DNA of 64,000 bases, from NCBI RefSeq assembly GCF_000970325.1, contig NZ_CP009518.1, positions 992,001-1,056,000 on the forward strand. Direction: 5' to 3'. The notes under the pieces were generated by a model. The model had not been told where the DNA came from, searched no databases, and worked only from the letters and a program-made list of their open reading frames with translations. The position numbers and the translations under genes are program-made. The DNA is from Methanococcoides methylutens MM1 (GTDB lineage: Archaea; Halobacteriota; Methanosarcinia; Methanosarcinales; Methanosarcinaceae). Below, one piece after another: positions 28,392-43,863 of this stretch (positions are counted from its first letter, which is position 1; every line of letters begins with the position of its first letter).

Positions 28392-28916
28392 TTATTCAAG
28401 TCCGAGCATTGTAACAGCAGCAACGATCAGTATACCAAGCCCTACCATTCGCACAGCATGTTTGATCGCACTTTGCTTGGCAATCTTCCCTGAGTATATC
28501 CCAAGTACTGCAAGGACTGAGATGCTCAATACTACTGATACTTCAAGGGCCATTTCGTCAAGGAGTACGAATGGTGAGATCGGGACAAGGGATCCGATGA
28601 AGCTTGATCCTCCATGAGCTATGGAATCGTTCCATATCTTCTTCTTTGTCTGAGCTTCCAGTTTTGTAGATTCCAGACTTCTTAGTAATGGTTTTTCAAG
28701 CTCAGCAAGATGGCCGTATTCGACTGCACTTTCTGCAAGGTATGATCCGATACCGTTGGTCATGGCCAATGCAATAGCACCTCCAAGAGCAGCATTAATG
28801 ATAATTGAAGGATCATCAACAACATGAGATGTCCCGATCACTACACCAAGCACGGCCAGAAGACCATCTATACTACCGAGAATAATATACCTGCCCTGTT
28901 CCTTATTGAATTTCAT
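28392..28916 (-). CDS. VIT1/CCC1-family membrane protein
   Basis: This protein of about 174 residues has four or five helices and the family's N-terminal motif LGSIDGLLAVLGVVIG. Charged residues in EYGHLAELEKP form the cytoplasmic loop expected in iron/manganese vacuolar-type transporters. Members export Fe2+ or Mn2+ from the cytosol. I prefer the ATG at 28916 over 28922 because it gives MKFNKEQ after a good upstream site; two start methionines are two codons apart. A TATA element on the minus strand near 28986-28998 fits its promoter. Confidence 0.8.
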   Translation of the reverse strand: MKFNKEQGRYIILGSIDGLLAVLGVVIGTSHVVDDPSIIINAALGGAIALAMTNGIGSYLAESAVEYGHLAELEKPLLRSLESTKLEAQTKKKIWNDSIAHGGSSFIGSLVPISPFVLLDEMALEVSVVLSISVLAVLGIYSGKIAKQSAIKHAVRMVGLGILIVAAVTMLGLE

Positions 28917-29068
28917 ACTCAAAGTTCCTTTAATGTCTTTGAACTTTCATAAGCGATCAGAAGAGAAAGGCATCTACACCCTCACCCGATATTTATATTG
29001 TATTTGTAAGTACATAGACTTTACCAGAGATATATCAGGACATCTGTGTAGTAATTAAAAGATCTAAA

Positions 29069-29200
29069 GGGGGGTGTGGGGTGGGAGAAGATGGGGGAGT
29101 TAATTGGGGGGTAACATAAGGTGGTTCTTCTGGGGAGAAAAGATTTGGTGACTCTAGGTCACCGTGGAAGTTCCACGGATTTCTCCCACCCGGGAATATA
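29069..29200 (-). ncRNA. Candidate structured non-coding RNA / G-quadruplex locus
   Basis: This is a non-coding stretch of unusual composition in the 651-base gap before the response regulator gene. An 11-bp pairing GGGTGGGAGAA (29079-29089) with TTCTCCCACCC (29181-29191) encloses two hairpins, GGTGAC/GTCACC (29147-29163) and CCGTGGAA/TTCCACGG (29162-29178). The plus strand carries many G-runs of 3-6 bases (29069-29134). A TATA box on the minus strand (29221-29229) predicts a transcript starting near 29200. The remaining gap, 29230-29573, holds only doubtful short open frames. Confidence 0.55.
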
Positions 29201-29220: not shown

Positions 29221-29229
29221 TTATATAAA
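29221..29229 (-). promoter_or_regulatory. TATA box for the candidate ncRNA
   Basis: On the minus strand it reads TTTATATAA, with an A/G-rich BRE-like segment upstream (CCGAAATG). It lies about 25 nt before the start of the structured region. Confidence 0.5.
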
Positions 29230-29573
29230 CATTTCGGACAAAAAGTAATTTAACGTGAAATTTTAATGAAATTCTCTTAAGATATTGTAGATCAAATTAG
29301 TTGAAAATGGTGCATTTGATTTTGCCAGGAACAATTCAAACTCTTAGTGGTATATCGCAACATCCTGATTGTTATGTATTCCAGGTATGTAATGACATTT
29401 GGATGTATTATTCTGAAAAATAGAGGTTGTTGTGGAGCTGAGGTCATTGATGCAGAGATCATTTCGGGTAGCAAGGTCAATGAATTATTCCGTACAAACC
29501 TCTGCTCGTGGCCTAAGCTCCACGTATTACACGATAAGCAGTATCTTATATGTTATAATCAACAGGAATGATG

Positions 29574-29987
29574 TTAAGCAGATATATCCTGGGCCATCTG
29601 CTTAAACGCCGGACTTTTGGCTTTGCAGAAGGCTGACTCAATAACATATTCCAGTTCCTCATCCATGAATGGCTTTTGCAGGTACCCGACAGGATTCGCA
29701 ATGGATGCTTTTGTTCTTGTCTCTTTTGATGAGTCGCCTGTAAGAAAGATAATCGGAACAACATATGATTTGAGTATTTCACTTGCAGCATCAATACCAT
29801 CCATTTTCCCTTTAAGGAATATGTCCATGATAATAAGGTCAGGCTTAACTTCTTTTACCATTTTGATCGCATCTTCCCCGGTTGTGGCATGCCCTGCAAA
29901 TCCGTATCCCATATCCAGAAGTTTAAGTTTGATCATCATTGCAACGATCATCTCATCTTCTACTATGAGGATATTCATTTCTTTCAT
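29574..29987 (-). CDS. Stand-alone response regulator receiver domain
   Basis: This 137-residue protein is a single CheY-like receiver domain: acidic pocket VEDE, phosphorylation site Asp in LIIMDIFLKG, Thr in FLTGDSS, and Lys in LQKPF. There is no output domain, as is usual for many archaeal receivers. I chose the start at 29987, because the longer frame runs through the terminator of the upstream gene and a GGGAG ribosome site precedes this ATG. It resembles the receiver at 35296-35706 in its first half and could be a target of the same kinase. Confidence 0.9.
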   Translation of the reverse strand: MKEMNILIVEDEMIVAMMIKLKLLDMGYGFAGHATTGEDAIKMVKEVKPDLIIMDIFLKGKMDGIDAASEILKSYVVPIIFLTGDSSKETRTKASIANPVGYLQKPFMDEELEYVIESAFCKAKSPAFKQMAQDISA

Positions 29988-32812: not shown

Positions 32813-34189
32813 TTAGAATGTAAGACCGAACTCTTCGAGTTTCTTCCTTGCACCCTCGTATACCTTGACATACTCGTCGGTTGGTGTGACGGTTGCAACG
32901 TCGTAGCATTCCTGGAAGGTCTTACCCTGTGGTGCATTTGCGTAGTCGCCCTCGTATGATGCGACAAGCTTGTCGAGTACAGCGTTGACGGAGTCGATGT
33001 CCATACCTGCTGTTGCACGTGCGACTTCTCCCATCATCCTTGCTTCCATACCGGTTGTCTTGTCGGTGATAACACCCTTTGCGGATGCGACACCTGAGAG
33101 GATCTCACGGCCGGATGCTGTGTCAGTTACTGACTGTGCTGCTGCTTCGAGGAGGCACATCTCTGTGCATGGTCCTGCGCATGGGTAGTACTGGTTACCG
33201 GTCATAAGGTCTGTGAACTCACTGATTGTTGCACATGCCCATCCTGCGATCTGGAGGGTTTCTCTGGTGTTGGTGGATCCCCATCTGATGTGGACAGGAC
33301 CATCAAGGTGCCAGCTTGCACTGCTCATGATCATGGAGTTAATGCTAGTTGCAACATCTACGATTGTTGTTTCTTCAATACCACCAGCGTATCCGCCGAA
33401 GATTGGCATCTGCTCGTCCATGATTATGTCACTGTTGCCCTTGTAGTGAGCCATGACTGCAATTGCATCGAGGTCGATCTTAAGCTCGTTGAGCTGTGAT
33501 ACTTCGTGGCTGTCACTTGTGATCTGGCCGCCGACACAGTCGGAAGCGATGTTACCCTGAGCGGACAGGGATGTCTCTGGTCCCTAAACAGCCATACCTG
33601 GCCTACCAGCCATTGCTGCTGCGTTCTTGATGATCCTTGTTTCGGACTTTGATGCGAGAACTTCGTATGGGCTGCCTGGTATAGGTGGCTTACCACGAAC
33701 CGTCATCATAACACCATTTACAATTGTGTCAACTTCTTTCTCGAGTGCATAGCTCATGTGAACTGCAGAGAACACCTCTTCTGAGATTGGGGAGCCGGTT
33801 GGACCACCCTGTACTATAGGCTTTCTCTTGTCGCCTACTTCTCTCTTCTTCATCTGTACTGCATCTCTGCCGGTACCGAGCTGGAATGCTGGCATTGGGT
33901 TGTTGATTGCATCCCAGAGTTCTTCTTCTGTGTATTTGACGATCCTCTTTGTGTCGGTACAGTAGATACCGCACTCAAGGAGCATGTCGAAACCTGCTTT
34001 GAAGAGTCTCTCCATCTGGTCCTTGTCGGTTGGAACGAACTCGTTACCAAAGTCAAGGTTGTATTTCTGCTTGAGTTCCATTGCCTTCATTGGAATGGTC
34101 ATCAAGTCCCAGTCATCCTGAGTTGTCTTTTCTCCGGTCTGTGCACGGTCATAGAAATCAAAGCAAGTTACTGATTTTGTGAATGTCAT
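32813..34189 (-). CDS. mtmB: Monomethylamine:corrinoid methyltransferase MtmB copy 1 (pyrrolysine protein)
   Basis: This is a 458-residue enzyme that transfers the methyl group of monomethylamine to MtmC. The reading frame is interrupted only by a TAG at 33584-33586, codon 202, the same position as pyrrolysine in Methanosarcina barkeri MtmB. Sequence on both sides is typical MtmB (GRPGMAV before, GPETSLSAQG after). It is read through as Pyl, the catalytic electrophile that binds the amine; this is established for the family. It is 15 bases downstream of mtmC. It differs from copy 2 at about a dozen residues. The tRNAPyl and PylS/PylBCD genes are not in this window. Confidence 0.97.
33584..33586 (-). 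other. In-frame amber codon read as pyrrolysine (codon 202, mtmB copy 1)
   Basis: TAG on the minus strand lies between GRPGMAV and GPETSLSAQG. The context matches the known Pyl202 site and the frame stays open for 256 further codons. Confidence 0.96.
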
Positions 34190-42486: not shown

Positions 42487-43863
42487 TTAGAATGTAAGGC
42501 CGAACTCTTCGAGTTTCTTCCTTGCACCCTCGTATACCTTGACGTACTCGTCGGTTGGTGTGACGGTTGCAACGTCGTAGCATTCCTGGAAGGTCTTACC
42601 CTGTGGTGCATCTGCGTAGTTACCTTCGTATGATGCAACAAGCTTGTCGAGTACAGCGTTGACGGAGTCGATGTCCATACCTGCTGTTGCACGTGCGACT
42701 TCTCCCATCATCCTTGCTTCCATACCGGTTGTCTTGTCGGTGATGACACCCTTTGCTGCTGCGACACCTGAGAGGATCTCACGGCCGGATGCTGTGTCAG
42801 TTACTGACTGTGCTGCTGCTTCGAGGAGGCACATCTCTGTGCATGGTCCTGCGCATGGGTAGTACTGGTTACCGGTCATAAGGTCTGTGAACTCACTGAT
42901 TGTTGCACATGCCCATCCTGCGATCTGGAGGGTTTCCCTGGTGTTGGTGGATCCCCATCTGATGTGGACAGGACCGTCAAGGTGCCAGCTTGCACTGCTC
43001 ATAATCATGGAGTTAAGGCTAGTTGCAACATCTACGATTGTTGTTTCTTCAATGCCACCAGCGTATCCGCCGAAGATTGGCATCTGCTCGTCCATGATTA
43101 TGTCACTGTTGCCCTTGTAGTGAGCCATGACTGCAATTGCATCGAGGTCGATCTTAAGCTCGTTGAGCTGTGATACTTCGTGGCTGTCACTTGTGACCTG
43201 GCCGCCGACACAGTCGGAAGCGATGTTACCCTGAGCGGACAGGGATGTCTCTGGTCCCTAAACAGCCATACCTGGCCTACCAGCCATTGCTGCTGCGTTC
43301 TTGATGATCCTTGTTTCGGACTTTGCTGCGAGAACTTCGTATGGGCTGCCTGGTATAGGTGGCTTACCACGAACTGTCATCATGACACCATTTACAATTG
43401 TGTCAACTTCTTTCTCGAGTGCATAGCTCATGTGAACTGCAGAGAACATCTCTTCTGAGATTGGGGAACCGGTTGGACCACCCTGTACTATAGGCTTTCT
43501 CTTGTCGCCTACTTCTCTCTTCTTCATCTGTACTGCATCTCTGCCGGTACCGAGCTGGAATGCTGGCATTGGGTTGTTGATTGCATCCCAGAGTTCGTCT
43601 TCTGTGTACTTGACTACTCTCTTTGTGTCGGTACAGTAGATACCACAGTCAAGGAGCATCTCGAAACCTGCCTTGAAGAGTCTCTCCATCTGGTCCTTGT
43701 CGGTTGGAACGAACTCGGTACCAAAGTCAAGGTTGTATTTCTGCTTGAGTTCCATTGCCTTCATTGGAATGGTCATCAGGTCCCAGTCATCCTGGGTTGT
43801 CTTCTCCCCGGTCTGTGCACGGTCGTAGAAATCAAAGCAAGTTACTGATTTTGTGAATGTCAT
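42487..43863 (-). CDS. mtmB: Monomethylamine:corrinoid methyltransferase MtmB copy 2 (pyrrolysine protein)
   Basis: This 458-residue enzyme is about 97 percent identical to copy 1 by my count, including the amber codon at position 202 (43258-43260) and its nucleotide surroundings. Substitutions are conservative (for example Ile/Val near 215). It is 16 bases after mtmC. The near-identity contrasts with the diverged permease modules and terminators, a sign of gene conversion between the coding regions. Confidence 0.97.
43258..43260 (-). other. In-frame amber codon read as pyrrolysine (codon 202, mtmB copy 2)
   Basis: TAG on the minus strand, in the same context as in copy 1; the frame continues for 256 codons to a normal stop. 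Confidence 0.96.

Follow-up and report, generated by a model that had tools for sequence, protein, structure and literature searches.

The locus lies in a window of 64,000 nucleotides (positions 992001-1056000) in a 2.39-Mb genome of the genus Methanococcoides, between a response-regulator gene and a VIT1-family gene, both of which are encoded on the minus strand. Genomes are referred to below by label where needed, with G000 being the window genome, G008 its sister genome, G004 M. vulcani SLH 33, G002 M. alaskense and G010 M. seepicolus. The features of the intergenic region and its borders are the following:

29574-29987, minus strand: response-regulator gene (Pfam Response_reg)
29232-29236, minus strand: BRE-like CGAAA, just upstream of the TATA box, also in G008 (CTCGAAAG)
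29221-29229, minus strand: TATA box TTTATATAA, seen in the sequence and conserved in G008
29077-29197, minus strand: predicted small RNA gene (extent of model R3), based on folding z, R3 members and conservation in G008
29057-29068, minus strand: T-rich stretch TTTAGATCTTTT after a C-run, a possible 3′ end judged from sequence only
28986-29026, minus strand: separate conserved promoter of the VIT1 gene, GTAAAGTCTATGTACTTACAAATACAATATAAATATCGGGT, from comparison with congeners
28392-28922, minus strand: VIT1-family gene

No open reading frame of at least 60 aa overlaps the RNA locus, in agreement with the initial annotation, which had found that no coding explanation fits. No tRNA was found at the locus and no Rfam match was obtained there, either at the gathering threshold or with E up to 1, and a literature search returned no published description of this RNA family. 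The annotated minus-strand TATA box is present 30 nt upstream of the closing stem described below, and CGAAA together with TTTATATAA would place the RNA start near 29200. The minus-strand product is likely about 120-135 nt long, with a predicted transcript span from about 29200 to 29057. The words TTTTTGTCCGAAA and TTTTCGGACAAAAA recur near these RNAs (at 29232-29244 in the window and in intergenic regions of L107, L117 and L050) and also elsewhere between genes in the genus, in some cases as closely spaced repeats (G007); they are possibly a regulator site. Elsewhere in the window, two PYLIS_1 elements (pyrrolysine insertion sequence, Rfam RF01982) are found at 33487-33586 and 43161-43260 on the minus strand.

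The folding of this locus is strand-specific. Relative to shuffles, the minus strand gives z = −4.96 over 146 nt and −4.74 over 121 nt, whereas the plus strand only reaches −1.80 and −2.52, respectively, suggesting that the structure belongs to a minus-strand RNA. The 11-bp pairing recorded earlier between 29079-29089 (GGGTGGGAGAA on the plus strand) and 29181-29191 (TTCTCCCACCC on the plus strand) is an exact inverted repeat, and it forms the closing stem of the common fold obtained from a three-sequence alignment of G000, G008 and G004. This fold consists of P1 (11 bp), P2/P3, P4, about 25-30 unpaired nt and P1′; every pair holds in this alignment, with one C-G to U-A change. Its elements, in the direction of the RNA, are:

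29181-29191, minus strand: 5′ arm of closing stem P1, reading GGGTGGGAGAA on the minus strand
29167-29176, minus strand: 5′ strand of P2/P3, GUGG-AA-CUUC, from the family fold
29147-29163, minus strand: apical hairpin P4, GGUGAC-CUAGA-GUCACC, kept in all five family members (GGUAA/UUAUC in one)
29121-29130, minus strand: 3′ strand of P2/P3, GAAG-AA-CCAC, from the family fold
29090-29120, minus strand: C-rich 3′ strand between P2′ and P1′, predicted to be single-stranded in the family fold
29079-29089, minus strand: 3′ arm of P1, reading TTCTCCCACCC on the minus strand

Both inner hairpins of the initial annotation (CCGTGG/CCACGG and GGTGAC/GTCACC) are predicted, and a local CCGUGG/CCACGG hairpin gives the lowest-energy fold of the window RNA, −37.3 kcal/mol vs. 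−30.5 kcal/mol for the P2/P3 fold. However, M. vulcani cannot form the CCGUGG/CCACGG hairpin, which leaves P2/P3 as the fold that is conserved. The RNA might switch between the local hairpin and P2/P3, although nothing supports this.

A DNA search of 60 relatives with the window RNA returned matches only in G008 (96%) and G004 (73%), so that conservation in the closest genomes, on which the initial annotation had made its reading depend, was found. Both copies are syntenic, lying between the same response-regulator and VIT1 genes; in five congeners (G002, G003, G006, G009 and G010) these two genes stand about 115-135 bp apart and the RNA is absent. Between G000 and G008, 3 of 131 positions differ in the RNA (97.7% identity), all of them in loops or single strand, vs. 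24 of 270 in the flanking non-coding DNA (about 91% identity; p = 0.011), suggesting with modest significance that the RNA diverges more slowly than its flanks. A covariance model of the conserved fold, termed R3, was built from the window, G008 and G004 orthologs, and it finds two previously unseen paralogs that were left out of model building, G005:C4:224612-224738 (39.2 bits, E = 1.2e-6) and G004:C12:162117-162236 (33.4 bits, E = 3.7e-5), with E-values calculated genome-wide. Both adjoin unrelated genes. Across the five R3 members, which are the whole set and whose alignment was fitted to the model, 95.8% of cells are paired and 7 of 24 pairs are changed on both sides, a level reached by 0 of 500 shuffles, while slid controls are 44-54% paired. 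Five of the 11 pairs of P1 are altered on both sides among these members, with most of P1 altered yet its pairing kept in the G004 paralog. P2/P3 (8 pairs) has 92.5% of cells paired in the same five-member set, with one pair changed from C-G to U-A in two members. The window RNA thus appears to belong to a family of independent members with compensatory changes, which is defined here as R3. Among 112 genomes of the family, no convincing R3 member was found outside the genus. The homology and covariation search proposed at the outset has yielded compensatory changes and two new paralogs, and nothing convincing beyond Methanococcoides.

These data bear on whether the structure arose by chance or is a relic in decay, within intergenic DNA prone to duplication. 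Exact stems of at least 11 bp with arms 50-130 nt apart occur at 7 start pairs in 5 distinct places in the window, whereas the same search in shuffles gives a mean of 1.7 and a maximum of 6, so that the 11-bp stem alone is only mildly unusual; moreover, some copies of the related R2 family described below (L089 and L096) look degenerate. The covariation and the significant independent paralogs speak against chance or decay, as does the slower divergence of the RNA (modest as its p-value is), and this explanation is considered unlikely.

The position of the RNA on the same strand as the VIT1-family gene, about 150 bp upstream of its start, would also suit a structured, riboswitch-like 5′ leader of that gene. 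However, GTAAAGTCTATGTACTTACAAATACAATATAAATATCGGGT, which lies between the RNA and VIT1, is near-invariant across G000, G001, G004, G005, G007 and G008, and comprises a promoter plus a probable regulator (metal?) site, so that VIT1 has its own conserved promoter and the RNA is not its leader. In G001, G004, G005 and G007, long sequence or other genes separate the RNA from this promoter and from VIT1, the two R3 paralogs adjoin unrelated genes as noted above, and the five congeners lacking the RNA still carry VIT1. The leader reading was rejected on the separate promoter and the intervening sequence, and we regard it as very improbable. The reading of the initial annotation, a non-coding minus-strand RNA with its own TATA box, instead gains support from the strand bias of the folding, from conservation and synteny, and from covariation and the significant paralogs, all of which are computed from sequence.

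In G001, G005 and G007, the gene slot is occupied by another RNA, which shares the layout of the window RNA but is of a second type, R2. Seven copies were used to build a first model, R1, whose 26 matching loci with E up to 0.1 among 60 genomes all fall in Methanococcoides. A second model, R2, rests on 23 copies and locates 27 loci with E up to 1.3e-4; they are spread over 6 of the 11 genomes of the genus, although the majority of these loci also trained the model. Among the 23 members, 16 of 26 pairs show double changes (0 of 500 shuffles), and the scores are strand-biased, 109 vs. 21 bits. P1 is wholly replaced and still pairs in L098 and in the R3 paralog L161. Near one gene pair, which we take by eye to encode an ABC1-kinase-like protein and a phenylacetate-CoA-ligase-like one, the orthologous R2 copies of G000, G001, G005 and G007 differ considerably in P1 sequence, showing that the stems turn over while the pairing is kept. 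In the 112 family genomes, R2 has one weak match beyond the genus (E = 0.067); the weak matches L134, L165 and L166, which the models gave there, were unconvincing on inspection. The R2 copies share an upstream motif, AACCAnAGCCGTATTTA, about 20-37 nt before the stem and with its end about 20 nt from P1, which was not found outside the genus as a multicopy signal; its position suits a promoter of the archaeal kind, at 20-25 nt or so from the start, and in M. psychrophilus the distance from promoter to start is 19-22 nt (PMC5378194). In L076 (G004:C12:57779-57818), the R2 upstream motif and the first bases of the stem lie ahead of a short ORF that resembles a lipoprotein, an arrangement to be expected if a protein gene had taken over the RNA promoter. 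A degenerate R2 subgroup (L107 4130-4230 and 5527-5627; L117 3815-3916 and 5662-5762) is oriented divergently to paralogous genes beginning MQMK, at about 125-130 bp from where these start, as if RNA and gene had been duplicated together; by their look, several of these genes presumably encode surface-repeat proteins.

These RNAs also occur in tandem. An array in G005:C5 comprises four units in about 600 bp, namely one R3-like unit (19.7 bits), two R2 units and one of a third type, and in G010 an R2-like and a third-type unit lie together. The third type, seen in G005 and M. seepicolus (L109 4181-4289 and L127 1711-1816), has the stem ATGGGTGTGGGAGC/..CTCCCATGCCCAT and an inner CAAGAAUGCUGCUAAACGGUAGUAUUCUUG hairpin, with apparent compensatory changes. 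Upstream of the window RNA, the same slot seems to hold a further structured element:

29430-29523, minus strand: likely second structured RNA, in tandem with the window RNA (z = −5.06)
29511-29522 and 29432-29443, minus strand: its arms, GTGGAGCTTAGG/CCTCAGCTCCAC

This first RNA of the slot aligns across G000, G008, G004, G001, G007 and a G005 array, and it is likely a tandem sibling of the window RNA.

The multicopy R2 units with their terminal inverted stems raise the possibility that the feature acts as DNA, either as a G-quadruplex or i-motif or as a MITE-like hairpin, rather than as RNA. The G-runs annotated on the plus strand are in place, and they provide the only quadruplex motif of the window:

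29069-29097, plus strand: G3+N1-7 quadruplex motif, the only one in the window (0.37 expected in shuffles)

The annotated quadruplex is a sequence motif only. It recurs in the M. vulcani ortholog, but its G/C-runs are lost or broken in the two paralogs L158 and L161, so that it looks like a by-product of the C-rich RNA strand. A DNA element is also at odds with the compensatory changes and the G-U pairs, which add to the score of a single strand, with the wholesale replacement of a P1 that still pairs, and with copies that occupy orthologous places but have diverged in sequence, unlike fresh insertions. We consider this explanation quite improbable.

A known class of guide RNA, in particular H/ACA, was considered since CCC-ACA follows the stem immediately in many R2 members, a likeness to archaeal H/ACA guide RNAs that extends to CCCC-ACA after P1 in the window RNA. 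However, the ACA is missing in several other members, no K-turn is recognisable by eye, there is no Rfam match at E up to 1, and the long single-stranded 3′ strand with a closing stem of 11-18 bp is unlike the H/ACA layout, which makes this assignment extremely unlikely.

How the window RNA relates to R2 can be judged from several observations. Against the R2 model, it scores only 3.8 bits (29077-29192, minus strand), which does not reach significance, and the upstream motif AACCAnAGCCGTATTTA is absent in the window and G008, although a degenerate form may precede the G004 copy. However, it shares the layout of a long P1, a short linker, a two-part inner helix, a 3′ single strand of about 25-30 nt and P1′. 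The M. vulcani ortholog is weakly matched, precisely in the slot, both by R1 (17.7 bits, E = 0.047 in 98 kb) and by R2 (20.7 bits, with a genome-wide E of 0.4). A common origin of the window RNA and the R2 family is likely in the light of the slot, the layout, this M. vulcani ortholog and the tandem neighbours, and in view of the low R2 score the window RNA is called a separate type, R3, of a probable superfamily. This wider set of RNAs, including the window locus, was not visible to the initial annotation. Tentatively, the superfamily would comprise at least three types (R2, R3 and the third in G005/G010), with closing stems of 11-18 bp, tandem arrangement, own promoters, and stems and strands that change quickly while the scaffold is held, and it could serve as a small regulatory system, perhaps responsive to cold, that is confined to the genus and diversifies fast, or else supply the RNA of an unknown ribonucleoprotein.

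By analogy, the closest precedent appears to be a group of nine highly conserved sRNAs of Methanolobus psychrophilus R15, which share an upstream 'cold box' and are all cold-induced (PMC5378194). These are likewise multicopy, conserved intergenic sRNAs with a shared upstream motif, in a sister genus, and the R2 copies share AACCAnAGCCGTATTTA; however, in the window RNA this motif is missing and an ordinary BRE/TATA takes its place. The likeness is one of description only, and an indirect search with R2 in 26 genomes of genus g4 (taken to be Methanolobus) gave nothing significant (best E = 0.10). A second precedent is sRNA162 of Methanosarcina mazei, an intergenic, genus-restricted RNA with stem-loops and a variable single-stranded linker that masks a ribosome-binding site in trans (PMC3510493). 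Compared by description, the window RNA is likewise intergenic and genus-restricted, with stem-loops and a variable single strand, whereas sRNA162 has 191 nt, several stem-loops in series, no enclosing closing stem and a single gene.

We therefore favour, with a probability of roughly 0.6, an independent minus-strand sRNA gene of about 120-135 nt at this locus, which would combine a stable scaffold with targeting by the C-rich strand. The R3 and R2 members adjoin unrelated genes, which argues for free-standing, trans-acting RNAs, and the window RNA probably regulates other RNAs. Transcription would start at about 29200 from its own BRE/TATA, and P1 and P2-P4 would form a scaffold protecting the RNA. 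The exposed strand at 29090-29120, a candidate target-binding segment, would pair with target RNAs, most simply at G-rich ribosome-binding sites, and repress their translation on the model of the sRNA162 linker (PMC3510493). Pairing of this strand with translation starts in the window is no better than that of its own shuffled versions, and the C-runs are not kept in paralog L161. Divergence of stem and strand among the copies may fit each of them to targets of its own, and a common environmental cue such as cold may control them.

Taken together, the locus is a predicted small-RNA gene outside Rfam that is lineage-specific, strand-assigned and supported by covariation, with a mechanism that we infer; the G-quadruplex takes second place to this reading. 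To our knowledge, few archaeal sRNA families have covariation support, and fewer have tandem-array paralogs. The boundaries of these RNAs are defined, their scaffold is conserved and one strand varies, which makes the set directly testable in cold-tolerant methanogens that can be cultured; there may also be a connection to the cold-induced sRNAs of Methanolobus, which are themselves unexplained.
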